Both the position numbers and the translations under genes were made by a program. DNA of 33,570 nt from Parachlamydiaceae bacterium (GTDB taxonomy: Bacteria > Chlamydiota > Chlamydiia > Chlamydiales > Parachlamydiaceae). Below are positions 14,814 through 33,386 of this stretch, piece after piece. The stretch's first letter is position 1; each line of letters begins with the position of its first letter. Where the stretch lies: the NCBI GenBank assembly GCA_025451995.1, contig JANWJE010000120.1, forward strand, positions 1 to 33,570. Direction: 5' to 3'. The notes under the pieces are model-generated. The model was not told where the DNA came from. It did not search any database and saw nothing but the letters and a program-made list of their open reading frames with translations.

Positions 14814-15047
14814 AAAATTTTGGCTCATCGCGCGAGTACCTAGCTTTAATAGACTTATTTTTTACTATTTTATACCGAAACAATTTCAAAATTTGGTTTT
14901 TGAGCTGCGCGAAAGCTCCCGCGATTGGGCGATCGTAAAAGGCATAGTATTAAGCAATACAAAGCCTTTTACGATCGCTCAACCCCGGGACTTTGGCGCG
15001 CTCAAAAGCCAAATTAGGTACTCGTTTGTGCGATGAGCCAAAATTTT
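14814..15047. repeat. Nested palindrome with a 48-bp insertion in one arm
   Basis: Outer arms: AAAATTTTGGCTCATCGCGC (from 14814) and its near complement ending at 15047. Inner arms: 14890-14943 and 14967-15018, containing CGATCGTAAAAGGC and its exact complement. The right arm reads CCAAATTAGGTACTCG without a break. The left arm reads GAGTACCTA, then 48 extra bases (14843-14890), then ATTTGG. The palindrome therefore appears to have been interrupted after it formed. The insert ends in ACCGAAACAATTTCAAA, a motif found at 16156-16177 and 33396-33435. No gene is seen in 14797-15159. Confidence 0.85.
14869..14890 (-). repeat. 22-bp motif, left copy flanking the sulfotransferase gene
   Basis: The motif TTTATACCGAAACAATTTCA (plus AA) is the inverted partner, with one mismatch, of 16156-16177. 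The two copies bracket the sulfotransferase gene. It lies inside the 48-bp insert of the nested palindrome. Confidence 0.85.
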
Positions 15048-15159: not shown

Positions 15160-16176
15160 ATGAAAAAAATCCTTGTTTTTTTATTTGTTGGATTTCTATT
15201 TTCAATCCAAGCCACAAATTATAAAATTCAAATTCTTCTTACAAATCCTCGTTCTGTCAGCACTGCTTTCGATCGATCAATGCGAGAGCGTGGCGATCAC
15301 AAAATATATTATGAACCTTGGAGTGCAGAAATTTGTAATCATTCGTTTGAAGAACTTTCAAAACTTACGGCTGAAGAAGTTAGTAAAATTAGAAATTATG
15401 AAAAAATTAAAAATTTAATTTTTCAAGACGCAAAAAAAAAACCTATTTTTATAAAAGAGCAAATTGGGGCAATAAAAAAAGAAATTTTAGAAGACAACCT
15501 TTTGCTTTCTAATCCAAATGTTATTTTTACAATTCTAATTAGAGATCCAGCTCGTTCGATAGAATCTGGATTTTTAATGATGGCAGACCAAGTTGCTCCA
15601 GAAATGGCAATATTTTTTACTGAAAAAATGTATTGTTATGATGCTCTTGTCTCATTTTCCGAAAAACATTTTAATGTGCGGGGAAAATGGCCTCTTATTA
15701 TAGAAGCTGAAGAACTTTGTAGTAAAAGTGCAATCATTTTACAACAATTTTGTGAGCATGCGGGAATTAATTATATGGAAGAAGCTCTTCATTGGAAACC
15801 GATAGCCATACCCATTGATTCTTGGAAAAATACTAAGATTCATGATCAAGTCATGAAAAGTACCGGATTTTTTATTCATGAAGAAAAAGGAAATTCTCGT
15901 TTTCATAAAGTTGAAAAAAAATATATCCCTGCACTTGAAAATATTTATCAGACACAAATAAAATTTTATGAAAAATTAAAAATTTTAAAAGAAAAAAACT
16001 ATACTCGTTCTACTTCAAACGTAGAAATTTTTACAAGGAGGCGGCCTGATTTTGCATCAAGCGTAGCTGGTGCCGAAGCAGCACAACTTGGAATTTGTTG
16101 TGCGATGCAGGCAGATGCAAAAGAAGAGCCAAGCCGACGTAGTAAAATTTCTACGTTTGAAGTTGTTTCGGTATAA
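15160..16176 (+). CDS. Exported sulfotransferase-like protein
   Basis: The 338-residue protein starts with a signal peptide (MKKILVFLFVGFLFSIQA). The PAPS 5'-phosphosulfate loop is seen as TNPRSVSTAFDRSM (about 28-41) and the 3'-phosphate region as LIRDPARSIESG (about 126-137), both typical of eukaryote-like sulfotransferases. Such enzymes move sulfate from PAPS to hydroxyls; with its neighbours, a sterol 3-hydroxyl is a reasonable guess. Export implies action outside the bacterial cytosol with host PAPS (inference). The last 50 residues (RRRPDFASSVAGAEAAQLG onward) are richer in Ala and higher in GC than the rest, and the final EVVSV plus stop are encoded by the repeat at 16156-16177, so the tail looks acquired. 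AGGA lies 7 nt before the ATG. Confidence 0.78.
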   Translation: MKKILVFLFVGFLFSIQATNYKIQILLTNPRSVSTAFDRSMRERGDHKIYYEPWSAEICNHSFEELSKLTAEEVSKIRNYEKIKNLIFQDAKKKPIFIKEQIGAIKKEILEDNLLLSNPNVIFTILIRDPARSIESGFLMMADQVAPEMAIFFTEKMYCYDALVSFSEKHFNVRGKWPLIIEAEELCSKSAIILQQFCEHAGINYMEEALHWKPIAIPIDSWKNTKIHDQVMKSTGFFIHEEKGNSRFHKVEKKYIPALENIYQTQIKFYEKLKILKEKNYTRSTSNVEIFTRRRPDFASSVAGAEAAQLGICCAMQADAKEEPSRRSKISTFEVVSV

Positions 16177-16177
16177 A
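16156..16177 (+). repeat. 22-bp motif, right copy at the sulfotransferase stop
   Basis: TTTGAAGTTGTTTCGGTATA (plus AA) encodes the last residues and TAA stop of the sulfotransferase. It is inverted relative to 14869-14890 (21 of 22 match) and is related to the right arm of the palindrome at 33396-33435. Confidence 0.85.
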
Positions 16178-16202
16178 GTTTCGATAAGCTTCTCGTTCTT
16201 GG

Positions 16203-17663
16203 TTAGATTCGAGGAATTAATTGAAGGAAAACATCCTCTTTTGTTTTAAGTGAAGTAAAAGCCACCTGTTCTATACTATCTTTAGGCATAGATTCAAAGC
16301 GATATTTTTCTACTAATGCTGCTACAAGTAAGCTAATCTCATCTTTTGCAAGCCATTGACCAGGGCAAAGATGCTTTCCTTCGCCAAAAGGAAGCCAGGA
16401 AAGTCCTTGTGAATTATCATGAAATCGATGTGGGTTGAATGTTTCCGGATTTTCATATTGAGAAGGATTTAAAGCTGCAAACATTGGTGATAGATAAAGT
16501 GTCTGATCTTTAAAGATTGTATCTGTACATAGGATCTCCCCTTTATTATTTTTCACTGTATAAGTGAGATCGGTAACAGGTTTTCGGCTAATCATATAGA
16601 CAGGTGGTAGAAGTCGAAGTGATTCTTTGAAAAGAGCGTCAATTTTTTGGGAATGAGTGGCTTTTTCATAAAGGGAACCTTCTATTTTTGTTATCTCTTG
16701 ATAAATTTCTTCTTGATAATTTGGATGTTTACCTAATTGCCAAAGAAGGTAATTTAACGCAGAACTTGGTGTCTCTGCACCACCAAAAAAAACAAAAAAC
16801 AGAGTTGTCTTAATTTGCAATTCGGTAAGCTTTTCCTTTCTTAGAATATCAACTAAAGACCCAAAGGGAGCATTAATAGTTAAAGCATAGTTTATGGCTA
16901 TCCGCATAATTTGAATGCTTTTTTGATATTTTTCTGCTTCGTTTTTCGGCATTTTTTTCTTCCAAACTTTTTGAACAGAGTATTTTAAAAGTTGGTTTAC
17001 AGCTAAACCAATTTCTTGATAAACTTCAATAGGACCTGGATGTCCAAGCAGCAATTGACAACTCACAGTTGTCACGTAAAGCATTGAGAGATTTGTAACA
17101 TTTATTTTTTTTTCTCGAGTTTTTTCTTCCCAAAAAGAAATTGTTTCTTCAACAATTTTTTCTAGTTCAAGTTTGTGGCGTTTGATATTTTGAGGACTTA
17201 AATATTGCAAAAGTGGAAGGCGATACTTATTTGCCATTTTTTTGCTACATGTTGCCATTAAATCTTCATGGGTAATCACTTCTGAAGGAAATAAATCTTT
17301 TATTATTGGAAATAAAACCTTGGAATTATCTTCGTCATTAAAAAAACCTTCATCAGGATCCTTTCTAAAATGCTTGAGAACCGATTTCATAAAATTTGGA
17401 TGTGAAACGATTTTTGCATCAAAAAGTAATGTGTTGAATGGATTCATTAATCGAAAAGGACAATAATTTTTAAATAGAGTTTTTCGCATTCCATAACGCA
17501 TTAACAAATAAGTATTATAAATTTTGACCATTGTTTCTTTAGTCAAAAATAAAACATTTTTTATTCTTTTCCATGGGGTTTTTATCACTAATTTTTTAGA
17601 TGAATGGCGGTGGATTTCAAAATTGGAATCTAGTGGAATGCTTACATACATTTTTTTTTTCAT
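16203..17663 (-). CDS. Cytochrome P450
   Basis: This 486-residue haem monooxygenase has all P450 landmarks: the I-helix oxygen-activation motif FFGGAETPSS (about 292-301, the AGxxT variant with Gly-Gly-Ala-Glu-Thr), ExxR in KESLRL (Glu347, Arg350), a PERF-like NPHRF (410-414) and the haem loop FGEGKHLCPG with Cys433. Length is at the long, eukaryote-like end for a bacterial P450. The N terminus is basic, with no clear membrane anchor. It is the last gene of the leftward group Rieske-SMT-secreted protein-SMT-P450, 36 bp after the methyltransferase. A sterol or steroid hydroxylase is inferred from context; CYP family assignment needs alignment. No redox partner gene is in the window. Confidence 0.95.
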   Translation of the reverse strand: MKKKMYVSIPLDSNFEIHRHSSKKLVIKTPWKRIKNVLFLTKETMVKIYNTYLLMRYGMRKTLFKNYCPFRLMNPFNTLLFDAKIVSHPNFMKSVLKHFRKDPDEGFFNDEDNSKVLFPIIKDLFPSEVITHEDLMATCSKKMANKYRLPLLQYLSPQNIKRHKLELEKIVEETISFWEEKTREKKINVTNLSMLYVTTVSCQLLLGHPGPIEVYQEIGLAVNQLLKYSVQKVWKKKMPKNEAEKYQKSIQIMRIAINYALTINAPFGSLVDILRKEKLTELQIKTTLFFVFFGGAETPSSALNYLLWQLGKHPNYQEEIYQEITKIEGSLYEKATHSQKIDALFKESLRLLPPVYMISRKPVTDLTYTVKNNKGEILCTDTIFKDQTLYLSPMFAALNPSQYENPETFNPHRFHDNSQGLSWLPFGEGKHLCPGQWLAKDEISLLVAALVEKYRFESMPKDSIEQVAFTSLKTKEDVFLQLIPRI

Positions 17664-17699
17664 AGAAAAATATAAACCTCAAAATAAATAGGAGTGATT

Positions 17700-18752
17700 T
17701 TATTTTTGTGTAATCATATAGTAACAAGATGTGACAAGCCTTTTTCTATCGGCATTTACAAAAGCTTGTCCATCTTGTATAAAACGATCAAATAAAAATT
17801 GAAAATATTTTGGCAATATCTTACATGTAACTAATATTCGAATAAATCTAGTTAGATGATTAAAATTTCGATCTACATTTTCAATAAGAGGGGCTTGAAG
17901 GCCATCAATGCTTGGGTTTTCACTTTTTAAGATCTTAAAACCTGCTTCTTGAAACGAAGTTTCGTAATCCTTAATTGAAGGATTTCCTATAGCTCCAATA
18001 AGAGGTTTTACCTGTTTCATGAGCTGCCTATGTTCCGGATTATCTGAAGAGTAGTTAAGAACTGCCCAATCTAAAAGAGCAAATTTTCCTCCAGGTTTTA
18101 GTATTCTATAAATGTCATGAGCAAGAGCAGTCAAATTTTTTGCATATGATAGCGCACCAAATTCATAAACTGCATCGAATGCATTGCTTACAAAGGGAAG
18201 AGGTAAATCATTCATATCCGCTAATTTGAAGGTTAAGCGTTGCGACAAATTCTTTGTTTCTTGAGCAAATTGTTTCGCTGATTTTAGCTGATTTTGATCA
18301 ATGTTTATCCCAGTTACATGTGCGCCGGTTAAAGAGGCAATATGAGCTGCAATTCTTCCACGACCACAGCCAATATCTAATACTTGATCACTTGATTTTA
18401 TATTTAAATCAAAACAAATTTTTTTTTCTGCCATTACCTGATTGGCTTGAAAACCTTTAGATAAATCTAAAGCTGGTGGAATATACATTTTTTCCACTTG
18501 ACCTAAGGCACACAAATGATTTAATACGCTATAATACTCCACTAATTTTTTTTGCATTTCTTGATAATAATTAACGCCAAATTTCTCAATCAATCGCTCC
18601 TCATCGCTCCAGTCATAATCAAAAATATCATATGCACCAAAAAAAGCTTCTATTTTCTCTTGTGGAAGAGTGTAAAGAGTCTTTAATGAATGAAATATAG
18701 TAGAAATTCTATATAACCGAGAATGTGCTTTATTCAATACTACCTGAAGCAT
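17700..18752 (-). CDS. Sterol C-methyltransferase-like SAM enzyme (copy 1)
   Basis: This 350-residue class I methyltransferase has SAM motif I VLDIGCGRGR (124-133), followed by GAHVTGINID and motif III-like RILKPGGKFALLDW. The stretch ALLDWAVLN, then NPEHRQLMKQ, matches the EW...NPEHR region that is characteristic of sterol 24-C-methyltransferases (Erg6/SMT), and the segment with LIGAIGNPSIKDYETSFQEAGF matches their C-terminal domain. The SMT aromatic sterol-binding segment YEYGWG is not conserved; at the same place is LNHLCALGQVEKMY. Substrate or methylation position may therefore differ, as in the nematode sterol 4-methyltransferase STRM-1. A strong GGAGG lies 4 nt before the ATG. It is a paralogue of the gene at 19479. 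Confidence 0.82.
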   Translation of the reverse strand: MLQVVLNKAHSRLYRISTIFHSLKTLYTLPQEKIEAFFGAYDIFDYDWSDEERLIEKFGVNYYQEMQKKLVEYYSVLNHLCALGQVEKMYIPPALDLSKGFQANQVMAEKKICFDLNIKSSDQVLDIGCGRGRIAAHIASLTGAHVTGINIDQNQLKSAKQFAQETKNLSQRLTFKLADMNDLPLPFVSNAFDAVYEFGALSYAKNLTALAHDIYRILKPGGKFALLDWAVLNYSSDNPEHRQLMKQVKPLIGAIGNPSIKDYETSFQEAGFKILKSENPSIDGLQAPLIENVDRNFNHLTRFIRILVTCKILPKYFQFLFDRFIQDGQAFVNADRKRLVTSCYYMITQK

Positions 18753-18792
18753 GCAGCCTCCAATATAATTTTGTAGACAGTTTTTAGAGATG

Positions 18793-19407
18793 TTATGGTT
18801 GAGAACTAAATATATTTTGCCTCACAAAAGAAAAAGGAATAAGAGAAGAGGTAAACACGGGAATGTCTAATTGACCCTCATTGGGACTAATTCCAATTAG
18901 TTCAATAATTTGGCCAGATGTAATATTTCTTCTTAGAATAATTTGACCCGATGAAACACCATAAGGAGTATTAGAAGTCAAAACAGCAAGACCCCGACGG
19001 GAATCAGTAATTTTAAGAGTATAACTTATTTGAGATTCATCAAATGAAGTCAATGTAACATGTCCAAGATTTCCAGCATAAGACTCTGAAAGAAAAAACT
19101 CCACCCTCCCATTGCCTCGTTTATCAAAAACCACTAATCCCATCGCTACAACAGAACGTCCCTTTCCTCCGTCAACTCCACCTACACTTTGACAGCGAAG
19201 GACATATTCACCTGCAACGTCTTTTAACTTAAAAGATTTTTTTTTTGAATCTTTGGCTTTATTTTTATCAATTTTATGACTACTGTTTGAAGCTTGAGAG
19301 GCTGTCAATAAAGAAAAATTCTTGTTTGGTAAAAGAAACGGCAATAATAAAAATGTGAAGAAAAAAATTATAATTTTTTTTGATTTAGAAATATTAAGTA
19401 TATTCAT
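18793..19407 (-). CDS. Secreted beta-rich protein of unknown function in sterol cluster
   Basis: The 204-residue protein has a basic N terminus and one hydrophobic segment (IIIFFFTFLLLPFLLPN), probably a signal peptide or anchor, then a Lys/Ser-rich linker (about 40-60) and a beta-rich domain starting DVAGEYVLRCQSVGG. Repeated short strands (GNGRVEFFLSES, HVTLTSFDE, GQIILRRN, GQIIELIG) suggest a small barrel. I do not recognise the family. It lies between the two methyltransferase genes in the same direction, so a lipid- or sterol-binding carrier is conceivable, but nothing in the sequence proves it. AAGGA lies 7 nt before the ATG. Confidence 0.72.
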   Translation of the reverse strand: MNILNISKSKKIIIFFFTFLLLPFLLPNKNFSLLTASQASNSSHKIDKNKAKDSKKKSFKLKDVAGEYVLRCQSVGGVDGGKGRSVVAMGLVVFDKRGNGRVEFFLSESYAGNLGHVTLTSFDESQISYTLKITDSRRGLAVLTSNTPYGVSSGQIILRRNITSGQIIELIGISPNEGQLDIPVFTSSLIPFSFVRQNIFSSQP

Positions 19408-19478
19408 CTTTTTAATCCTTCTTGTAAATTTTTCTATCTAACATCGCTTGACATAAAATTTTCCAACTTTGAGTATTT

Positions 19479-20555
19479 TCAACTTTTCTCTCCCATAATA
19501 TAATAACTTGTAGTCACAAGCCCTTTATAATCAGCTTTTATAAATGCTTGACCGTCTTTTGTCAACCTATCAAATAAAATTTTAAAATGTTGAGGAATTA
19601 GATTCCATTTCACTAGACGATGAACTATGTGAGCTATGAGTTTAAAAAAACGGTCAGCATTTTCTATAAGAGGTGCTTGTAATCCATTTATACTAATATT
19701 TTTGCTAATGAGTATTTTAAATCCGGCTTCTTTAAAAGCACTTTCAAATCCCTCGATTGTAGGCGTTCCAATAGCACCAATTAATGGTTTAATTTGTTTC
19801 ATAAGGTTTGTGTGTTCTGAATTCTGTGAATCGTATTTGTCAAGTTGAACCCAATCCAAACAAGCAAATCTTCCTTTAGATGTCAATATTCGATAAACAT
19901 CTCGACAAATAGCTGTCAATGTTTTTGCGTAACTAAATGCTTGTATTTCATATGCAGCATTTAATGAATTGTCTGGAAAGGGTAGGGGTAGAAGATTGAA
20001 ATCCGCTTGCTTGAACCGGCATTGTTCCGCCAAATCCTTACCTTTTGTAAATTTTCTAGCTGATTCCAGTTGATTGGTATCTATATTTATCCCAGTCACA
20101 TTAGCTCCTGTTAAAGAAGCTATATGACATGCAATTTTGCCCCTTCCACAACCTATGTCTAAAACTTCAGAATTAGATTTTAGGTTTAGATCAAGAGACA
20201 TTTGTTTTTCAAATAATAATTGATTAGTTCGAATGCTGGCTGAAGTATCCATTATGGGAGGAATGTACATTTTTTCAACCTGTCCAATAGCACAAAGATG
20301 ATTTAGCACACTATAATAATGAACCAATTTCTTTTGGATTTCTTGATAGTAATCCATTCCCAATTTTTCTATTAAATGTTCTTCATCAACCCAATCGAGA
20401 TCGAACATCTCATAAGAAGCTAAAAAATCATTTACCTTTTCAGGACTTAGCTTATAAATAGTTCTTATTGATGATAAGATTGTGAAAATTCTATTAATAA
20501 AATAATTAAATTTTATTTTTGTCCTATTAAACGTATTAATTTTTGATTTAATCAT
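19479..20555 (-). CDS. Sterol C-methyltransferase-like SAM enzyme (copy 2)
   Basis: At 358 residues it is close in sequence to the 17700 protein throughout, sharing for example LIEK-G--YYQE-QKKLV, YYSVLNHLCA-GQVEKMYIP and the ending GQAF-KAD. Motif I is VLDIGCGRGK (131-140). The region LDWVQLDKYDSQNSEH is even closer to yeast Erg6 (EWVMTDKYDENNPEH, quoted from memory) than in copy 1, which supports a sterol methyltransferase ancestry. The YEYGWG motif is again replaced. It starts 6 nt after the Rieske stop, so the two are co-transcribed, without a clear Shine-Dalgarno. Two diverged copies suggest successive methylations or two sterol substrates. Confidence 0.83.
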   Translation of the reverse strand: MIKSKINTFNRTKIKFNYFINRIFTILSSIRTIYKLSPEKVNDFLASYEMFDLDWVDEEHLIEKLGMDYYQEIQKKLVHYYSVLNHLCAIGQVEKMYIPPIMDTSASIRTNQLLFEKQMSLDLNLKSNSEVLDIGCGRGKIACHIASLTGANVTGINIDTNQLESARKFTKGKDLAEQCRFKQADFNLLPLPFPDNSLNAAYEIQAFSYAKTLTAICRDVYRILTSKGRFACLDWVQLDKYDSQNSEHTNLMKQIKPLIGAIGTPTIEGFESAFKEAGFKILISKNISINGLQAPLIENADRFFKLIAHIVHRLVKWNLIPQHFKILFDRLTKDGQAFIKADYKGLVTTSYYIMGEKS

Positions 20556-20561
20556 TTGGTT

Positions 20562-21554
20562 TTAATTTTTGAAAAATTGTTTTGTCCATTGTCGATATTT
20601 AGCTATTGAAGCATCTTCAACCATTAATTTTGGACAGGTTAAATATTTTTTATTTTTCCATATTTTAATATCATTTTTAACTTCTGAAATGGAAATAAGG
20701 AAGAGAATTCTGGAAAGAAAATAATTTATTAGTTTTTTAGGAAAAATTTTTAACCATACCTGTGCATTTTGAATATTCATTTCAGTGATAGTGAAGATGA
20801 TGGTCATTTTTGTTTGTTCTTTATCGATGCATGTATAAAATGTCATTAATCGCGTTTTTATCTGATATTTGGCAAGATACATATTAACGACTGTATAACC
20901 CAAACCATATAAATAAATATCCACGTCAGCAATAAAATTTTGTTTTAAAAATCGAATGCCCTGACGATTCAGTCGATAACGTGAATGAAAAATATGATTT
21001 TCCATTTTCGCTTGTTCTAAAATTTCTAAATCAGAAACATTATGCACATCAAAGAAATGCCGTATATCAACACTGTTTTCATTCGTATCTAAAGGATGAG
21101 CAGGCACAATCGACGAATAAGCAAGATAAGGGGAACATCCTTCCGGATTAAAATGAGGAATTTCCCATAAAGGATTTGAGCTCTCATCTTGATCATACCA
21201 AATAAAAATTAATCCAGCATTTTCATAGACTGACCATTTTTTTATTAACAATTTTTCTGAAGAAGAATTCTTAGAATAAGTTTTAACACATTGACCATTG
21301 GTATTAAAGCACAAACCATGAAATGGACAGCGTATGGTCTCTCCTACTATGCATCCGCCATGCCCCAAATGAGCTCCTAAATGAGGACAATACGCATCTA
21401 AAAAAGCTATCGTTCCAGATAGCGTACGAAATCCAACAAGTTCCCGATCAAAAACTTTAATAGGTTTTACTTTGCCCTTAGGAAATTCATTGGATAATCC
21501 AATTAAGAACCATCCTGAAGGAAACAATAAGTTTGGCTGACGATAAATTGTCAT
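20562..21554 (-). CDS. Rieske oxygenase, cholesterol 7-desaturase (DAF-36/Neverland)-like
   Basis: This 330-residue protein has an N-terminal Rieske [2Fe-2S] domain with CPHLGAHLGHGG (Cys56, His58) and CPFHG (Cys76, His79), and a mononuclear iron site NENSVDIRHFFDVH (His166, His171, with Glu159 or Asp163 as likely bridging acid). The spelling CPHLGAHL-GG..-..CPFHG with WEIP further on and FPSGWF near the start matches the sterol-active Rieske group (DAF-36/Neverland, KshA) better than aromatic-ring dioxygenases. Those enzymes introduce the 7,8 double bond in cholesterol or hydroxylate steroids. It is the first gene of the leftward group, divergent from the glycosyltransferase. Its reductase must be encoded elsewhere. 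Confidence 0.88.
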   Translation of the reverse strand: MTIYRQPNLLFPSGWFLIGLSNEFPKGKVKPIKVFDRELVGFRTLSGTIAFLDAYCPHLGAHLGHGGCIVGETIRCPFHGLCFNTNGQCVKTYSKNSSSEKLLIKKWSVYENAGLIFIWYDQDESSNPLWEIPHFNPEGCSPYLAYSSIVPAHPLDTNENSVDIRHFFDVHNVSDLEILEQAKMENHIFHSRYRLNRQGIRFLKQNFIADVDIYLYGLGYTVVNMYLAKYQIKTRLMTFYTCIDKEQTKMTIIFTITEMNIQNAQVWLKIFPKKLINYFLSRILFLISISEVKNDIKIWKNKKYLTCPKLMVEDASIAKYRQWTKQFFKN

Positions 21555-21670
21555 TGAGAAATGTTATCCTTTTGTTCTTTTCAAAAAAAACTTAAGATGA
21601 TATTAAATTATTAATCAATAAAAAAATAAACAAATCAAAAATTTCAGGATTTAGCTGGTCTGAATAAAAA

Positions 21671-22819
21671 ATGAAACATAAGAAAAAAAAAGTGTTTGTT
21701 TTATATAGTAAGGGCGGTGGCGGTCACATTTCAGCAATGAAAGCTATAAAATTTTATCTTAGAAATAATTATGAAGTGAAAGAAATCTGTTTAATTGAAG
21801 AGATAATTCAAAATCTTGATTTTATAAGAAAAATTACCTTTTCATTCTTTAATGCTGAAGATCTTTATAATTTTTTTATTTCACATAAGATGATAAAACC
21901 AATTAATTGGCTAACTAATCTTGCTCGTCGATTAATACCAAAAAGAGGATTGCATTATGATCGATTAATGAAATTTTATTTTATACAAAAAAAACCAGAT
22001 TTAGTGATTTCAGTAATTCCTATTTATAATGAATGTTTAATTAATTCATTAAATTTCTTAAAGATTCCCTTTCTCGTAATCCCAGCAGATTTAGATACAA
22101 ATTTTTACTGGTTAAACATAAATCAAAAATATACTAATTATCAATTCACCCTGCCTTTTCAAAATGATTTAATAATTAATAATGCTTTAAAACATCTTCT
22201 CAATTATGAATTCATCTTCACAGGTTTTCCATTAAAAAAAGATTTTTTCGAAAAAAAAAACAAAAAAAAGATTCTAGCTGATTTCGATCTACCAAATGAC
22301 AAACCTATTATTATGCTTATGATGGGTGCCAATGGCTCTTCCAAAATCCTTGAATATTTAAAAGAAATAAAAAATTTACAGCATTCCTTACATTTGGTTG
22401 TTTGTATAGGATCACAAAAAAAACTTAGAAAACGAATTAATCGCTTTTCATTTAGTGATCTTATCACTTTTTCAATAGTAGAATTTACATCAAGAATTTC
22501 TGATTTAATGTATATCTCTGATATATTGATCACAAAACCTGGTGCTACAACTATATGTGAGGCGATTCAAATGCAATTGCCGCTTATTATCGATAATATC
22601 TCTGCTGTTATCGAATGGGAAAAAATGAACATCACTTTTATCAATGAATATTATCTAGGAGTAACAATTTCCTCTTATGATGAAATCAATAAAAAAATCA
22701 ATTTGTTGCTTAACGATAAAGAAATGAAAGAAAATATAAAAAAAAACATGAAAAAATTCAATAGCTTAGAATTTGATAAAAACATCAATAAAATCGTGTC
22801 TAATCTAGTAGATAAATAA
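21671..22819 (+). CDS. GT28-like glycosyltransferase (MGDG synthase/UgtP type)
   Basis: The 382-residue GT-B protein begins VFVLYSKGGGGHISAMKAI, the acceptor-side GGGH loop of MGDG synthase, UgtP and MurG relatives. The C-terminal nucleotide-sugar site reads ITKPGATTICEAIQMQLPLI. MurG is unlikely: the N-terminal domain carries an MGDG-synthase-like helical region (about 60-110). Family members glycosylate diacylglycerol; within this cluster a sterol acceptor giving steryl glycosides is possible (inference). It is the first rightward gene, with an ATG after AATAAAAA and no Shine-Dalgarno. Its base composition is noticeably more AT-rich than the housekeeping genes, consistent with transfer. Confidence 0.85.
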   Translation: MKHKKKKVFVLYSKGGGGHISAMKAIKFYLRNNYEVKEICLIEEIIQNLDFIRKITFSFFNAEDLYNFFISHKMIKPINWLTNLARRLIPKRGLHYDRLMKFYFIQKKPDLVISVIPIYNECLINSLNFLKIPFLVIPADLDTNFYWLNINQKYTNYQFTLPFQNDLIINNALKHLLNYEFIFTGFPLKKDFFEKKNKKKILADFDLPNDKPIIMLMMGANGSSKILEYLKEIKNLQHSLHLVVCIGSQKKLRKRINRFSFSDLITFSIVEFTSRISDLMYISDILITKPGATTICEAIQMQLPLIIDNISAVIEWEKMNITFINEYYLGVTISSYDEINKKINLLLNDKEMKENIKKNMKKFNSLEFDKNINKIVSNLVDK

Positions 22820-22843
22820 AGAAGAACTTCAGATTTTTCAACT

Positions 22844-23839
22844 ATGAAAAAGCTCAATATTTTAATAACAGGAGCCAATGGTTTTGTCGGTCAAAACCTA
22901 CTCCATCTCCTTTCAAAAGATAAAGCTTATTATTTAAAGGCCTTATATCATCACAATAGTGAAAATTTAAAAAAATGGAATATAGAAAAGATAAAAGGAG
23001 ATGTGCTAAATCTGGAATCATTAAAAAATGCATTTAAAAATGTTGATGTTGTTTTTCATTTAGCCTCCATTATCTCGATTGATTGTGATGACACAGAAAT
23101 AGTATGGCGCACTAATGTCGAAGGGGCAGCTAATGTGGCAGAAGCTGCCCTTTTTTGTAAAGTTAAGCGTGTAGTACACATGAGCTCCATTCATGCTTTT
23201 GACATCTATCATTTCGAAGATTTTCTCAATGAGCAATCCCCCAAATCTTCTATAGACAAAAGCTTTCCTTATGATGCTTCTAAGGCAGCTGGAGAATTGG
23301 AAATGTTGAAAAGACTTGAAAAAGGTCTTGATGTAGTAGTTGTAAACCCCACAGGAATAATTGGTCCTTTTGATGTAGCACCATCACTAAATGGAGATTT
23401 TTTAATTAAATTAGCAAAAAGAAAGTATCCCTTTTTAATCAGAGGTGGTTTTGATTGGGTTGATTCTAGGGATGTCGCCAAAGGAGCGTTACTCGCGTAC
23501 AAAAAGGGAAAAAAGGGAGAGAATTATATTCTCTCGGGAAGATATGCTAGCTTTAAGGAAATATCTAAGCATGTATCACAAATAGGAAAAATACGCACCT
23601 CGTATTTAACTATCCCATATCTTTTTGCCTTACTATCTCTTCCTTTAGTCAAATTTTTTTCTTTGATTACAGGCAAAACAACAAACTTCAGCTATCAATC
23701 ATTAAATACTACTCAAATAAAAAAAAACATTTCTTCACTAAAAGCACAACAAGAGCTCGGTTATAGACCGCGCGATCTTGTATATACATTGAAAGATTTC
23801 TATGCTTTTTTGAGTCAGAGCCAATCTAATGATATTTAA
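22844..23839 (+). CDS. 3beta-HSD-like extended SDR / NAD-dependent sterol or sugar dehydrogenase
   Basis: The 331-residue extended short-chain dehydrogenase has the NAD(P) motif TGANGFVG (9-16), LASI after the fourth strand, and the catalytic triad Ser115, Tyr143, Lys147 (HMSSIHAF and YDASKAAGE). The C-terminal GG-DWVDSRDVAKG and GENYILSG are shared by 3beta-hydroxysteroid dehydrogenase/isomerase, dihydroflavonol reductase and hopanoid-associated epimerase relatives, so a 3beta-HSD assignment depends on context. A 3-keto steroid made by this enzyme would be the substrate for the 5-alpha-reductase encoded next. It starts 24 nt after the glycosyltransferase stop. The 23839-24006 palindrome begins on the last base of its stop codon. 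Confidence 0.82.
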   Translation: MKKLNILITGANGFVGQNLLHLLSKDKAYYLKALYHHNSENLKKWNIEKIKGDVLNLESLKNAFKNVDVVFHLASIISIDCDDTEIVWRTNVEGAANVAEAALFCKVKRVVHMSSIHAFDIYHFEDFLNEQSPKSSIDKSFPYDASKAAGELEMLKRLEKGLDVVVVNPTGIIGPFDVAPSLNGDFLIKLAKRKYPFLIRGGFDWVDSRDVAKGALLAYKKGKKGENYILSGRYASFKEISKHVSQIGKIRTSYLTIPYLFALLSLPLVKFFSLITGKTTNFSYQSLNTTQIKKNISSLKAQQELGYRPRDLVYTLKDFYAFLSQSQSNDI

Positions 23840-24006
23840 ACCTAGAAACGGCAGTTCAAGGCGATAAAGTGATGCAAGATTTTGATTTAGAATCGCTAAC
23901 AATCGGGGGTGGACATTCCCAAAAGGTGAAGGCGCCCCCGATTGTTAGCGATTATGGCTCAAAAGACCCGCGTCAATTTATCGCCTTCAACTGCCGTTTC
24001 TAGGTT
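23839..24006. repeat. Nested palindrome filling the gap between two steroid genes
   Basis: Outer arms of 30 nt (23839-23868 and 23977-24006) match with one mismatch and contain CCTAGAAACGGCAGTTCAAG, the motif duplicated at 6218-6249. Inner arms AATCGCTAACAATCGGGGG (23891-23909) and CCCCCGATTGTTAGCGATT (23935-23953) are exact complements. The repeat runs from the stop of the SDR gene to just before the AAGGA of the 5-alpha-reductase gene. It may attenuate transcription between the two genes. Confidence 0.93.
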
Positions 24007-24017
24007 AAAAGGAAAAA

Positions 24018-24782
24018 ATGTCTGAATCTGAAATTCACACCATTTTAGTTTGTGGAGTATATATATTTGGTTTCATTTCATTTTTTTTATTATTGGCAAT
24101 GCCTGCACCTTATGGCAAATTCAATCGAATAGGGTGGGGACCTTCCATAGATAATCGTTGGGGGTGGTGTCTCATGGAGGCACCGGCAATGATTTTTTTT
24201 CTTTTTGTCTACTGCTGGGGTGCGCATAAATGGGAGAAAGGGCCTCTTGTATTCTTATGTTTATGGGAATTACATTACATTTATAGAACATGCATCTTTC
24301 CTTTTTTATTAAAAACTCCTAAAAAAAGAATTCCTATCACCATTGTTATATCGTCTATTCTTTTTAACATTCTCAATGCTTATATTAACGCTCGTTTTAT
24401 TTCTGAGTTTTCAAATAATTCTATTTTGTTTCTTTATATAAATGTTGTTTTCGGTATTGCTATTTTTATTATCGGATTTTCAATTAATGTCTGGTCGGAT
24501 CATGTTTTAATACATTTACGAAAATCAAGAGATGATATCGGTTATAAGATCCCCTTTTCTCCGCCGTTTTCTTTTTTACATATTTCTTGTCCCAATTATT
24601 TTGGAGAATTGTTGGAATGGACTGGATGGGCTCTTGCTTGTTATTCATTATCTGGGTGGTCTTTCGCTTTTTTTACAGCTTCTAACTTAATTCCAAGAGC
24701 TTTAATAAGTCATCAATGGTATAGAAAAACGTTTAAAGAATATCCAAGCAATAGAAAGGCTATCATTCCTTTATTATTATAA
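24018..24782 (+). CDS. Steroid 5-alpha-reductase (3-oxo-5-alpha-steroid 4-dehydrogenase)
   Basis: The 254-residue length equals that of eukaryotic SRD5A1/2 and plant DET2. Conserved segments run the full length: PAPYGKF (29-35), GWGPSIDNRWGW (39-50), MEAP with Glu54, ELHYIYRTCIFPF with Tyr87, NVWSDHVLIHLRKS (157-170), GYKIPF, SCPNYFGELLEWTGWALA (190-207), NLIPRA, HQWY and YPSNRKAIIP at the end. Glu54 and Tyr87 correspond to the catalytic pair Glu57/Tyr91 of human SRD5A2. The enzyme is a seven-helix membrane protein that uses NADPH to reduce the 4,5 double bond of 3-oxo-4-ene steroids. AAGGA lies 4 nt before the ATG. This is the most specific steroid enzyme of the cluster. Confidence 0.95.
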   Translation: MSESEIHTILVCGVYIFGFISFFLLLAMPAPYGKFNRIGWGPSIDNRWGWCLMEAPAMIFFLFVYCWGAHKWEKGPLVFLCLWELHYIYRTCIFPFLLKTPKKRIPITIVISSILFNILNAYINARFISEFSNNSILFLYINVVFGIAIFIIGFSINVWSDHVLIHLRKSRDDIGYKIPFSPPFSFLHISCPNYFGELLEWTGWALACYSLSGWSFAFFTASNLIPRALISHQWYRKTFKEYPSNRKAIIPLLL

Positions 24783-24799: not shown

Positions 24800-25525
24800 C
24801 TAGTTCAAACTCACAATCCCTTCAATAGACATCTCTAGAGTAATGTTTTTCATTGCCTTTATCACTTTTTCTACATTCTTTGAATGTTGTGCTGAGTCTA
24901 GCACTACAACTGATTTGTTTTGAGAATTTTGATTGAAAAGCCCTATCGCCAGCATCAATACTCTCTCATCAATATCGAAATGAGAAAAATCTATCTGCTT
25001 TAGATTCGAACATTTTTTAATCAGCTGTTCAACGCAATAAATGAGAGAGCGCTTGCTCAACCCTGAAAATGATTTTAAGTGCAATGAATGCAACTTAAAA
25101 TAGAATTCATCATTGTAAAGTTGAAAGAATTTCTGAAGGTCAGATTTGTCCCCTTCGTAGCTCACTTCTTTTTTTAACGCATGACTTTGCAATAATTTAG
25201 CCTTGCCATGGAAAGATTCAAATTGAAAATAATAATCTTTGGAAATTTCATGGGTGGGCAATGGTTCTTTTCTTTCCAAAAAGACATCTTTCCATAGGAT
25301 ATTATCTTTTAAGATAATAGCCCACCTTTTGCACACTACTCTTCCAAGGGCCTTTTCAGTTTTATCAAGACAACAAAAGATTTCACAAATCATTTCTGCT
25401 GGACAATCATTCAATTGACCTATAGGACCGATAACTTTCCATCGATTGTCAGTTCGTTTGAATTTGTCTTCAGAAGGTGCTATCTCTTGTCTGAATAAGC
25501 CGCTAATGGATTGAAGAAAATACAT
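24800..25525 (-). CDS. F-box protein, putative host-directed effector
   Basis: This 241-residue protein has a clear F-box at about residues 37-80: LNDCPAEMICEIFCCLDKTE, then LGRVVCKRWAIIL and ILWKDVFLER. F-boxes bind Skp1 and recruit substrates to SCF ubiquitin ligases, which exist only in eukaryotes, so the protein is expected to act in the host cell. The C-terminal part has leucine-rich stretches (FKLHSLHLKSFSGLS, CSNLKQIDFSHFDIDERVL) that could be degenerate LRRs binding substrate. No signal peptide; type III secretion is inferred. It is the last gene of a leftward operon, 2 bp after its neighbour, with AAGGAAG 8 nt before the ATG. Confidence 0.88.
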   Translation of the reverse strand: MYFLQSISGLFRQEIAPSEDKFKRTDNRWKVIGPIGQLNDCPAEMICEIFCCLDKTEKALGRVVCKRWAIILKDNILWKDVFLERKEPLPTHEISKDYYFQFESFHGKAKLLQSHALKKEVSYEGDKSDLQKFFQLYNDEFYFKLHSLHLKSFSGLSKRSLIYCVEQLIKKCSNLKQIDFSHFDIDERVLMLAIGLFNQNSQNKSVVVLDSAQHSKNVEKVIKAMKNITLEMSIEGIVSLN

Positions 25526-27066: not shown

Positions 27067-28290
27067 ATGAAAGTTGCTATGCGTAAATTATTTCTTTTGT
27101 TCGTTGCCGTCAGCATACACGCTCAACAAACACCCCAGCCTCCTTTAGAGGGATTAAGCGATTCTGAGGTGGCTCATTTTGAATTATTGGTTGATGGAAG
27201 CAATCATTTTGCTTTTGATGCCTATCAAGAGTTAAATAAACAGATGGCCGGCAATTTTGTCTTTTCTCCCTATAATATTACAAGTGGTTTGGGATTGGCA
27301 GCTATAGGTTCTAAAGACCAAACCGCCCTCCAATTCCAGCATCTTTTCCACTATTCTCTCCCCCTTCTTCTTTTTCAAGGAGATTTAGTTGCAAGTCTCA
27401 AAAGGGGGAATGGTGCGAAAGTTTTTATAGCAAACGGGATTTGGATCGATCAAAAAATTACAGTGCTTCCGGCCTTTAAGCAATCCATCCTTCGAAATTA
27501 TCGTTTTTCTCTGATTAACTGTGACTTTAATCAACCTTTGCAAACCATTCAAAAAATAAATGAAATCATTTCAAAAGAAACAGAAGGTAAAATCCATCAA
27601 CTGCTTCTAAGCCAAGATGTGACAAGTGGAACTAAAATGCTATTAACAATGGGTGCTCACCTCCAAGCTAAATGGGATGTCCCCTTTAATCGCTATGAGA
27701 ATCGCAAATTACAACCTTTTCGCGTCACTAAGCATCGCACCTCTCAAGTTGAAATGTTTTTTGTTAAATCTCCCTTAGACTATTTGGATGAAAATCAATT
27801 TGAAATGATAGATATCCCGTTTGAAAAAACAGGACCCACCTATGTTCTCTCTCTATTTGTTCCTAAGCTGACATCCACTTTGGATGAGCTCGAAAAAGCT
27901 TTTACTTATGAAAATTGGAAAAAATGGAAAATGAACATCAAAAAACGAAAGATCTTTCTTTCAATCCCCTCGTTTAGAATTGAAAAAAGGCTTGATCTGA
28001 AAAACCTCCTTAAATCTCTTGGTTTAACAGAAGCATTCAATCAAAATGCAAATTTTGGAAACTTAACGAATGAAAAAGGAATTTATATCAATAAAGTTAT
28101 TCACAAAACAAGTATAAAATTGGATGATAAAGGAGTGAATGTATCCATAGCAAAGCAAGTTAAGATTCAAACCTCCAATCAAGAGAAAGAAGACTTTTAT
28201 GAATTGACCATCGATCGCCCTTTTATTTTTGTCATCTGCGATCAACAATCAGATACACTCCTTTTTATGGGGAGAGTAATTCTTCCTTAA
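27067..28290 (+). CDS. Secreted serpin-family protein
   Basis: The 407-residue protein has a signal peptide (KLFLLFVAVSIHA, cleavage near residue 19) and a full serpin fold: NFVFSPYNITSGLGLAAIGS near the start, NGIWID, ISKETEGKIHQLL, IPSFRIEKRLDLKNLLKSLG, and the end RPFIFVICD...DTLLFMGRVILP. The reactive-centre region begins KLDDKGVNVSIAKQ (351-364). The hinge of inhibitory serpins is typically EEGTEAAAAT; here Gly356 is kept but following positions are Val, Asn, Val, Ser, Ile, Ala, Lys. Efficient loop insertion is thus doubtful and P1 cannot be assigned. It may inhibit or merely bind host or amoebal proteases. Serpins are rare in bacteria, so eukaryotic origin is possible. Confidence 0.93.
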   Translation: MKVAMRKLFLLFVAVSIHAQQTPQPPLEGLSDSEVAHFELLVDGSNHFAFDAYQELNKQMAGNFVFSPYNITSGLGLAAIGSKDQTALQFQHLFHYSLPLLLFQGDLVASLKRGNGAKVFIANGIWIDQKITVLPAFKQSILRNYRFSLINCDFNQPLQTIQKINEIISKETEGKIHQLLLSQDVTSGTKMLLTMGAHLQAKWDVPFNRYENRKLQPFRVTKHRTSQVEMFFVKSPLDYLDENQFEMIDIPFEKTGPTYVLSLFVPKLTSTLDELEKAFTYENWKKWKMNIKKRKIFLSIPSFRIEKRLDLKNLLKSLGLTEAFNQNANFGNLTNEKGIYINKVIHKTSIKLDDKGVNVSIAKQVKIQTSNQEKEDFYELTIDRPFIFVICDQQSDTLLFMGRVILP

Positions 28291-31101: not shown

Positions 31102-31183
31102 TAATTTATATTCGTTAAAATCAAAGTTAATCTTAAAAAATTAACAAATTGAACATTATATCTCTACTAGAAATAGTGGTGAT

Positions 31184-31265
<82 letters not shown>

Positions 31266-31267
31266 AT

Positions 31268-32401
31268 ATGTCTTTTTATATCACAAGTCGCGAACCCTAT
31301 CGATTTGGGGGACAGCAGTTAGATTATATTGAACAATCACAAGCAATTGTATTTGAAACAGTTGGCAAGATTAAACAAGCAGTTCATTCAAAAAAAGATT
31401 TAACTCAACTCTTTCATGAACTTCTAAGCGACCTTGGGAATGCGCGCAATCAAATTGCCGTGAATCACGGAACAAAAGCTTCAGAGGATTTTGGGTGCAG
31501 AAGAGATGGACTTCCTTTTTCTATGCCGGGTTGCTACACACCCTTGATCGGCTGTTATGAAGAATATCATCAACGGCCACTTTCCTATCTCCAAAGCCTC
31601 TTAGCCAATATGAAATATAATCTTAGAGAGTTTCAGCAAAAAAAACTAAAAATTGAAGAGAAAACATGTTTGGGAAAAGAATCTTCATTAGAATTAGAAA
31701 TTTTTTCCGTTGAAAACACGAATGAATGGGGCATTTTCCCTTCAAAGGAAGAATACGAACGACTTTGCCAAATTTGTGAAATCTCCATTCTCAAAAATCC
31801 ATTTGAGTTTGAATTCTTTAAAAACCTATTAAAAGATAAAGATTTTTGTCTAAAATTAAAGGAAAGATCACTCGAAGACTATAAAAAAATAAAACTCTGT
31901 AACACGATCGTGGATCTGAAAAAAATCAATGCGGAAAAAAAGTCAGATTGGATTCTTGCCACAAGACGATTAAAAATTAACGATAAAATGTATGCATTAT
32001 CCCATTATTTAACTTGGGCATACCGCGACTTCAAATCAGATCCTATTGAACAGATGACACATCGATCTGTTGTTGCAATCCAACACGAAGACTCTTTTTT
32101 AATTGGTCCGGTGTTAAATGATGTTGCAGAAATTTTTAAACGCGCCATCGAATGGAATAAAGAGAATATTTCTAGTTTGCAAGAAAATATTGCTCTTTTT
32201 CTCTATGAAATGAGCAACGTTATGCCATTTAAGAGAGGAAGTGCTGCGATTTTAGAATGGTTCGAAATGGCTATTTATAGGTATCATGATATGTGGATTA
32301 CCTATCATCCGAAGTATTTAGTCAATTTAGAAGCTCTAACCCTCCCTTTAGCGGAATTTGTAAGGACTTATCCTTCTATGATCAGTTATACCTCTTCTTA
32401 G
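31268..32401 (+). CDS. Unknown protein with Fic-like C-terminal motif
   Basis: Starting at the ATG at 31268, 2 nt after the tRNA, the protein is 377 residues; the longer in-frame reading is only translated tRNA. No signal peptide or membrane helix is seen. The first 100 residues contain a conserved-looking segment with DGLPFSMPGCYTPLIGCYEEY; the middle is charged and helical. Near the end, NVMPFKRGSAAILEWF (317-332) resembles the Fic core HPFxxGNGR in layout but lacks the catalytic His and Asn (Met and Ser instead). A degenerate Fic-like fold is therefore a hypothesis. No ribosome-binding site can lie outside the tRNA. The YchJ-deformylase gene follows after 10 bp. Confidence 0.72.
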   Translation: MSFYITSREPYRFGGQQLDYIEQSQAIVFETVGKIKQAVHSKKDLTQLFHELLSDLGNARNQIAVNHGTKASEDFGCRRDGLPFSMPGCYTPLIGCYEEYHQRPLSYLQSLLANMKYNLREFQQKKLKIEEKTCLGKESSLELEIFSVENTNEWGIFPSKEEYERLCQICEISILKNPFEFEFFKNLLKDKDFCLKLKERSLEDYKKIKLCNTIVDLKKINAEKKSDWILATRRLKINDKMYALSHYLTWAYRDFKSDPIEQMTHRSVVAIQHEDSFLIGPVLNDVAEIFKRAIEWNKENISSLQENIALFLYEMSNVMPFKRGSAAILEWFEMAIYRYHDMWITYHPKYLVNLEALTLPLAEFVRTYPSMISYTSS

Positions 32402-32411
32402 GAAAATAGAC

Positions 32412-33386
32412 ATGCACTCACATGAATCCTGTCCATGTTTTAGCGGAAAAAAATATGAAGAATGCTGCAGACCTTTTCATCAAGGCGTTTTCCCTCAAAA
32501 TGCCCTTTTATTGATGCGATCTCGATTTTCAGCATATGTTTTGAATCTTGCCGATTATATCATTGAAACAACCCACCCGGCTAGCCCACAATATTCTGAA
32601 AATAAATTCCTATGGAAAAGAAGCATTTCGCAATTTTCTCAAAAATGTTTTTTTTCAAACTTAAAAGTGCTGGATTTTAAAGAGCACTCGATTATTGCAA
32701 CTGTGACATTTACTGCTCATATCTCTCAAGAGGGCCAGGATGCTACTTTTACTGAAAGAAGCACCTTTGAAAAAAAGAATGATCAATGGCTTTACCGAGG
32801 TGGGCTGATTGCACAAGGCCAAGCTCCGAACCTCGTTACCACCGCCCCATTGAGATTATTGCCCCTCGCCTATTATGGCGATCCGGTTCTAAGAAGAAAA
32901 GGGGACTCTATTCTCGAAATTACTGACGACATTAAAAAGCTCATCGAAGAAATGATTGAAACAATGGATGATTCGGATGGGATTGGTTTAGCCGCTCCTC
33001 AAGTGCATCATTCCTTGCGATTGTTCGTGATCCATACCCCCATCCAAAAGGAAGAAAACAAACTAGAGAAAGGGAGTGTTAAAGTGTTTATCAATCCCAT
33101 TCTTTCATTGCCGAGCTCTGAAACATGGCAAGCGCCAGAAGGATGCCTCTCAATACCCACCCTGAGGGGTGTTGTTGAAAGACCAAAAGAGGTGACTGTT
33201 GAATACACGACGCTTGAGGGCAAGAGAATACAGGAACACGTTTCCGGCTGGGAAGCTAGAGTAATTATGCACGAATACGATCATATTGAAGGAATTCTAT
33301 ATATCGATCGATTGCCGGAAGAAGAGCAGGCCAAGTTAAAGCCATTCTTAGATAATATAGAGAAAAGGATTCATGGTGATCTTTGA
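32412..33386 (+). CDS. def: YchJ/SEC-C domain - peptide deformylase fusion
   Basis: This 324-residue protein joins two domains in one frame. Residues 1-138 match the YchJ (UPF0225) family: SEC-C zinc motif CPCFSGKKYEECC (Cys7, Cys9, Cys18, Cys19), then RSRFSAYV and a NTF2-like beta domain. Residues about 148-324 are peptide deformylase: GIGLAAPQ (190-197), EGCLS (Cys245, metal ligand) and HEYDH (His287, Glu288, His291). Deformylase removes the formyl group from new proteins at the ribosome; a zinc-binding SEC-C domain could help localise it, which is inference. AGGAA lies 8 nt before the ATG. Ordinary deformylases are about 170-190 residues. Confidence 0.93.
   Translation: MHSHESCPCFSGKKYEECCRPFHQGVFPQNALLLMRSRFSAYVLNLADYIIETTHPASPQYSENKFLWKRSISQFSQKCFFSNLKVLDFKEHSIIATVTFTAHISQEGQDATFTERSTFEKKNDQWLYRGGLIAQGQAPNLVTTAPLRLLPLAYYGDPVLRRKGDSILEITDDIKKLIEEMIETMDDSDGIGLAAPQVHHSLRLFVIHTPIQKEENKLEKGSVKVFINPILSLPSSETWQAPEGCLSIPTLRGVVERPKEVTVEYTTLEGKRIQEHVSGWEARVIMHEYDHIEGILYIDRLPEEEQAKLKPFLDNIEKRIHGDL

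Follow-up and report, generated by a model that had tools for sequence, protein, structure and literature searches.

The 33,570-b contig of a Parachlamydiaceae bacterium analysed here (JANWJE010000120.1, contig G000:C120 of our sample; the whole contig is called the window) carries nine adjacent open reading frames (ORFs) at 15160..24782, which a sequence-only reading had taken for a sterol/steroid-modification cluster. All nine are present at these coordinates in the ORF list. We put the probability at about 60% that this cluster, judged by its sequence, oxidises and 5-alpha-reduces sterols from the eukaryotic host of the bacterium. Two of the encoded proteins are members of steroid-acting families with their catalytic residues intact: a Rieske oxygenase with a KshA_C domain and a steroid 5-alpha-reductase-family protein. 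With an extended short-chain dehydrogenase/reductase (SDR) and, by association, a cytochrome P450, they make up a predicted core of three or four enzymes for steroid tailoring that is probably real and functional; the other genes are of less certain role. The earlier reading had named these four families among the nine, and Pfam matches back the family calls of all four members. For comparison we used 190 chlamydial genomes (designated by G-numbers), including the cluster's own genome, G000, an assembly of 2.94 Mb (completeness 96.85%, contamination 0.32%).

Enzymes of the predicted steroid core

The Rieske oxygenase (20562..21554, minus strand) matches the Pfam families Rieske (62.6 bits) and KshA_C (78.7 bits, cut-off 23.3), the latter over positions 1-207 of the 207 in the profile. 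Motif definitions for KshA/Neverland Rieske oxygenases were taken from PMC7609953. The residues C56/H58/C76/H79 (C-X-H-X16-17-C-X2-H) and the iron motif E159/D163/H166/H171 (E/D-X3-D-X2-H-X4-H) are both present. The best structural matches of the fold are KshA enzymes, with 22-23% identity to the KshA structures. The protein is not KshA proper, since the first position of the iron motif is E159 here versus D174 in KshA; this Neverland/DAF-36-type E agrees with the DAF-36/Neverland-like label given to the gene earlier. KshA_C is rare in the sample, being found in only two of the 189 other genomes (G039 and G116). The two nearest relatives (P0002 and P0003, 49% and 43% identity) come from one source whose longest contig is 5,351 b, and may be tandem copies. 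A scan of further genome contigs yielded one relative, in a metagenome-assembled genome of Crocinitomicaceae, where the remaining ORFs have no match to any of the 20 window proteins used as queries.

The reductase (24018..24782, plus strand) matches Steroid_dh (PF02544) with 145 bits (cut-off 22.6). Its best solved relative is the bacterial PbSRD5A (201.7 bits), followed by human SRD5A2 (97.4 bits). According to the accessible part of PMC7815742, PbSRD5A reduces progesterone, and residues E57 and Y91 do the chemistry. The equivalents here, E54 and Y87, are the same in all 122 aligned sequences. SRD5A2 has eight named NADPH residues (N160, D164, R171, N193, E197, R227, H231, Y235), of which seven are kept, as N157, D161, R168, N193, E197, R227 and Y235. 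The protein is of the M-E type, as is plant DET2. Its two best other matches are oomycete proteins (48% identity), and in a FastTree phylogeny of the 122 sequences it groups with these two (support 0.985). The proteins of G115 and G062 form a pair in another part of the tree (0.937), so that by this phylogeny more than one acquisition of the chlamydial copies is probable. Three of the 190 genomes have a strong Steroid_dh match (147-192 bits); another 21 matching genomes reach at most 48.6 bits. In all three genomes an SDR gene lies directly upstream of the reductase on the same strand, at a distance of 178 bp in the window and with a 4-bp overlap in both G062 and G115. The upstream SDR of G115 is unlike that of the window and scores 233.6 bits to 3Beta_HSD.

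The window SDR (22844..23839, plus strand) is of the HpnA/SdmB/3-beta-HSD kind. Its Pfam match to Epimerase (107.3 bits) exceeds that to 3Beta_HSD (70.4 bits), the Y143-x3-K motif is present, and relatives at E<1e-60 were found in 7 of the 190 genomes. G039 and G080 contain a second locus of this SDR family, with an ERG4/ERG24 gene some kilobases away and amid envelope genes (LicD, O-antigen ligase, inverse autotransporter). We do not use it as support, as these copies lack Y-x3-K by pattern and lie among such envelope genes. The P450 (16203..17663, minus strand; Pfam 133.1 bits) has an intact I-helix GGAET, ESLR (ExxR) and heme-binding FGEGKHLCPG. It has relatives in 18 of the 190 genomes, the closest chlamydial copy being that of G188 (50% identity).

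The predicted reactions are as follows. The SDR would convert a 3-beta-hydroxyl to a 3-keto-4-ene, and the reductase would saturate the 4-ene to give a 5-alpha-3-ketosteroid. The Rieske enzyme may oxidise ring B, by 7,8-desaturation or hydroxylation, and the P450 may hydroxylate the ring or the side chain. The methyltransferases and the sulfotransferase encoded in the cluster would perhaps methylate and sulfate the product, which is predicted to be an oxygenated 5-alpha-steroid. We think that the purpose could be the adjustment of the inclusion membrane or altered host sterol signals; the sequence does not settle which. The same route of Rieske enzyme, 3-beta-HSD, 5-alpha-reductase, P450, methyltransferase and sulfotransferase could also yield a steroid-hormone-like compound from host sterol. 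This oxygenated and perhaps sulfated 5-alpha-steroid would act on a protist host, perhaps one with sterol-derived signals, such as an oomycete. We consider this version unlikely. If true, a bacterium would make its own counterpart to dafachronic acids or brassinosteroids, starting from stolen sterol.

Methyltransferases, conjugating enzymes and surroundings of the cluster

Two S-adenosylmethionine (SAM) methyltransferases, MT1 (17700..18752) and MT2 (19479..20555), are encoded on the minus strand; they belong to one chlamydial family and share 57% identity. They had been called similar to sterol methyltransferases (SMTs), a label that did not hold up, as both have only generic SAM-methyltransferase Pfam matches. 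Sterol_MT_C (PF08498) was neither among the Pfam families listed for MT1 and MT2 nor among the 24 listed for MT1 with E-values as high as 10; for 14 members of the methyltransferase family, it was not among the 25 families listed of 51. Because this domain is missing, we reject the assignment of MT1 and MT2 as sterol 24-C-methyltransferases. Compared with solved structures, MT1 scores 67.9 bits to RebM (3bus) and 33.4 bits to 24-SMT (6f5z). The model of MT2 (predicted local distance difference test, pLDDT, 90) is nearest in fold to MitM, AtmM and mycolic-acid methyltransferases such as CmaA1, and there is no SMT among the 50 folds listed for it, which alone excludes nothing. Many relatives are named sterol 24-C-methyltransferase by JGI; such a name is no test.

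Among the matches listed, six of the seven relatives with an organism name are chlamydial and one is from Verrucomicrobiota. At E<1e-100 the family occurs in 16 of the 190 genomes, and the aligned members are 53-63% identical to MT1 (45% in G116). An ERG4/ERG24 sterol reductase is found in 13 of these 16 genomes versus 44 of the 174 others (Fisher p 1.4e-5; p 5e-4 by permutation inside four families), G000 itself being one of the three that lack it. We take this co-distribution as a hint, because it was tested post hoc and several of the genomes are congeneric. The neighbourhoods of the relatives (13 loci in 11 other genomes) contain none of the other steroid-type window genes. Apart from one gene common to G055 and G086, the only loci with neighbours in common were those of the congeneric G039 and G080.

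The glycosyltransferase (21671..22819, plus strand) had been described as GT28-like, and a match to the GT28 C-terminal Pfam domain (38.3 bits) confirms this. It is of the diacylglycerol-glucosyltransferase type, with matches to PRK13609 (106.3 bits, cut-off 500) and to the PDB entries 9wde (69.3 bits) and 4wyi (45.7 bits), and its family is common in one chlamydial family, apart from steroid genes. On these glycerolipid-type matches and this distribution we reject conjugation with sugar, proposed along with the GT28 label, as a shown step.

The sulfotransferase-like ORF at 15160..16176 (plus strand) matches Sulfotransfer_5 over the cut-off, if weakly (26.5 bits, cut-off 23.2). Its last ~51 codons (residues ~285-335) fall within an inverted-repeat element of 152 bp (16012..16163) that has perfect inverted ends of 20 bp and resembles a miniature inverted-repeat transposable element (MITE). 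Given the weak profile and the repeat-derived C-terminus, we do not accept sulfation as a shown step, though the distribution of the gene across genomes, described below, favours its belonging to the cluster. The repeat-derived C-terminus matches ten other G000 contigs, so it is unlikely that the contig was misbinned. Weaker matches to the product of the element were seen in G087, G108, G115, G162 and G166. Further MITE-like inverted-repeat elements lie at 14814-15047 and between the SDR and reductase genes (23835..24010, with 41-nt arms that are 90% complementary).

The cluster is arranged as two divergent runs separated by a 116-bp intergenic region (21555..21670), apart from the sulfotransferase-like ORF at its left end. 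The minus-strand run reads Rieske oxygenase, MT2, a 204-aa protein (18793..19407), MT1 and P450, with gaps of 6, 71, 40 and 36 bp. The 204-aa protein is probably secreted, judging from a hydrophobic N-terminus read off its translation, and matched no Pfam or NCBIfam family. The plus-strand run begins with the glycosyltransferase, which is 24 bp from the SDR gene; the reductase gene follows at the distance given above. Scans for promoters and terminators gave signals within ~1 standard deviation of shuffled sequences, and the divergent region likewise has no promoter above the shuffles. The G+C content of the nine genes is 25.5-33.9%, versus 34.9% for the window.

Adjoining the cluster are two genes of eukaryotic type, for an F-box-like protein and a serpin (276.5 bits), at 24800-25525 and 27067-28290. 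Near the end of the window (31183-33386), a tRNA-Leu overlaps the beginning of an ORF that matches the XopAH/AvrB family below the cut-off (34.2 of 220 bits), followed by a single ORF that fuses a YchJ-like part to a peptide deformylase.

Related blocks in other chlamydiae and the likely source of the sterol

Related partial blocks are present in other chlamydial genomes (the SDR-reductase pairs of G062 and G115 and a block in G039). G039 belongs to another family of the same order. Its block (L007 7629-15401, G039:C19) combines a P450, a KshA_C Rieske oxygenase and an SDR with 30%, 25% and 42% identity to those of the window, and these three genes thus occur together in two of the three Rieske genomes. 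The next gene encodes a KstD-like protein that matches a 3-oxosteroid 1-dehydrogenase (PDB 7p18; 390 bits, residues 6-550). Among NCBIfam models it matches those for this enzyme best, with 724 and 645 bits, though the cut-offs are 837 and 788. KstD profile matches were obtained in 133 of the 190 genomes, a full match in G039 alone; outside this genome the matches listed are hits to the FAD motif below 27 bits, and G000 has no KstD match. The G039 block is followed, on the opposite strand, by genes for a major facilitator superfamily (MFS) transporter and an HlyD-type membrane-fusion protein.

G000 aside, only G039 and G116 combine relatives of the P450 and of the methyltransferase family with relatives of the sulfotransferase's enzyme part. 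These are also the sole other KshA_C genomes, and all three belong to different families. G000 was left out of this count as it holds the genes by construction; the profile is post hoc and rests on two genomes. Ankyrin-repeat and Zeta-toxin-like genes lie close to the Rieske locus of G116 (L008 8405-9420, G116:C109).

Host sterol had been named as the likely input, and our results agree with this. G000 has no match to squalene/oxidosqualene cyclase (PF13249) and none to ERG4/ERG24 sterol reductases, so that a sterol substrate would come from the host. In the whole sample the cyclase profile matched only one genome, at G042:C3:106834-108363; G042 also has an ERG4/ERG24 match. ERG4/ERG24-type matches were obtained in 58 of the 190 genomes (57 above the cut-off), far above the few described in the accessible parts of PMC2667531 and PMC9666466.

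Alternative explanations and known systems

Several observations weigh against the proposal that the cluster oxidises and 5-alpha-reduces host sterols. In the reductase, two residues of importance to the human enzyme differ, as the Q of the Q-E-Y triad (equivalent to Q56) is M53 and SRD5A2 H231 is S231; the protein therefore cannot be counted as SRD5A1/2-type. Among the 122 aligned sequences this triad position is M in 109 and Q in one. Changing the triad Q of human SRD5A2 to A or L abolished its activity, according to the accessible part of PMC7815742. The SDR stays below every NCBIfam cut-off (HpnA, its top match, 199.1 bits, cut-off 367.65; SdmB 169.4, cut-off 600), and the P450 falls in no steroid-specific family. 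The best NCBIfam and solved relatives of the glycosyltransferase are processive diacylglycerol glucosyltransferase and monogalactosyldiacylglycerol (MGDG) synthase, sterol glucosyltransferases lying outside this comparison. No redox partner is present inside the cluster, and the four Fer2 matches of G000, one of them in a 102-aa frame, are all outside it. No other genome of the same family in the sample carries the Rieske gene, and the G039 Rieske protein is just 25% identical to that of the window. The G116 Rieske gene is split into two overlapping frames with a TGA between them, and its 13.5-kb contig has no relative of the SDR, P450 or reductase.

Some of these points would fit a cluster that tailors a different lipid (for example an isoprenoid, a polyketide or a glycolipid), in which the Rieske enzyme, P450, methyltransferases, SDR and glycosyltransferase would decorate the molecule and the reductase would saturate an enone. 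The diacylglycerol-type glycosyltransferase, HpnA as top match of the SDR, P450 matches scattered across many substrates, and a methyltransferase fold nearest to MitM, AtmM and the mycolic-acid and prenyl-diphosphate methyltransferases are all compatible with this. We regard it as rather unlikely nonetheless, for Steroid_dh and KshA_C lie in one cluster, KstD is found within the related G039 block, the methyltransferase family co-distributes with sterol reductases, and there is no scaffold-making gene among the families found in the window. The sequence-only reading had named, as grounds for giving up the sterol pathway, a placement of most of the proteins in non-sterol families. The family matches do not bear this out in full: the glycosyltransferase is glycerolipid-like, the Rieske oxygenase and the reductase fall in steroid-acting families, the SDR and P450 are compatible with them, and the methyltransferases, the sulfotransferase and the secreted protein are assigned to neither side.

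In steroid ring opening, KshA usually works together with KstD. With KshA as best fold match of the Rieske protein and a KstD in the G039 block, the cluster might therefore serve steroid degradation or detoxification, the Rieske enzyme being a KshA-like 9-alpha-hydroxylase on 3-ketosteroids and the P450 starting side-chain oxidation. This appears quite improbable: G000 has no KstD match, its iron motif has the E of Neverland and not the D of KshA, a 5-alpha-reductase saturates the very ring on which KstD acts as a desaturase, and a breakdown pathway would not be expected to include methyltransferases. It is highly improbable that the genes are a chance gathering of unrelated, horizontally acquired genes with no common pathway. 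The three inverted-repeat elements, the eukaryote-like F-box and serpin neighbours, the patchy distribution of the Rieske, reductase and P450 genes and the failure of the three chlamydial reductases to form one clade would all suit a repeat-rich mobile region. Set against this are the minus-strand gaps of merely 6-71 bp, the SDR upstream of the reductase in three of three genomes (an unlike SDR in one), the joint occurrence of P450, Rieske and SDR genes in two of three Rieske genomes, and the gene profile common to G000, G039 and G116 from three families.

If our reading of the cluster as acting on host sterols is true, some Chlamydiota would remodel host sterols in depth by a multi-enzyme cluster. 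Their use of host sterol could be tested with three or four genes, and the G039 block with its KstD points to a wider steroid chemistry across the phylum. A search for sterols or steroids in chlamydiae, environmental ones included, which covered mainly non-subscription literature and mostly at the level of listings, gave no report of such a cluster.

Individual parts have counterparts in known systems. Dafachronic-acid, ecdysteroid and brassinosteroid routes use Rieske, P450, 3-beta-HSD and 5-alpha-reductase enzymes; here the genes are bacterial and clustered, and the likeness is one of enzyme kind, not of shown descent. The Rieske protein resembles KshA and Neverland (DAF-36) in its KshA_C domain, KshA fold and Neverland-type E and differs in its distance from the KshA structures (22-23% identity). 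The reductase shares the Steroid_dh profile, the catalytic E and Y and seven of eight NADPH residues with SRD5A, PbSRD5A and DET2, and differs in having M for Q and S for H231. Compared with actinobacterial KstD-KshA breakdown, there is a KshA-like fold here and a KstD in the G039 block, but G000 has a 5-alpha-reductase-family gene instead of KstD. Methanotrophs, a myxobacterium and a cyanobacterium are known to have a Rieske-SDR pair of sterol enzymes (PMC10202945, accessible part). This pair, the C-4 demethylase SdmA/SdmB, is of the same broad kind; its bacteria synthesise their own sterols, however, and the cluster proteins score far under both cut-offs (44.4 bits for SdmA and 169.4 for SdmB, of 600), on which we reject C-4 demethylation by SdmAB. 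Similar in biological setting are the sterol reductases (ERG4/ERG24, DHCR7-type) published in intracellular bacteria including chlamydiae, for which parasitism of host cholesterol was suggested (PMC2667531, PMC9666466; accessible parts); the words Rieske, P450 and steroid do not occur in PMC9666466. These reductases, too, are eukaryote-like sterol enzymes thought to act on host sterol, and host-sterol modification by intracellular bacteria has so far been argued from such single genes, whereas here oxygenases, an SDR, a 5-alpha-reductase-family protein and methyltransferases are clustered in a genome without ERG4/ERG24.

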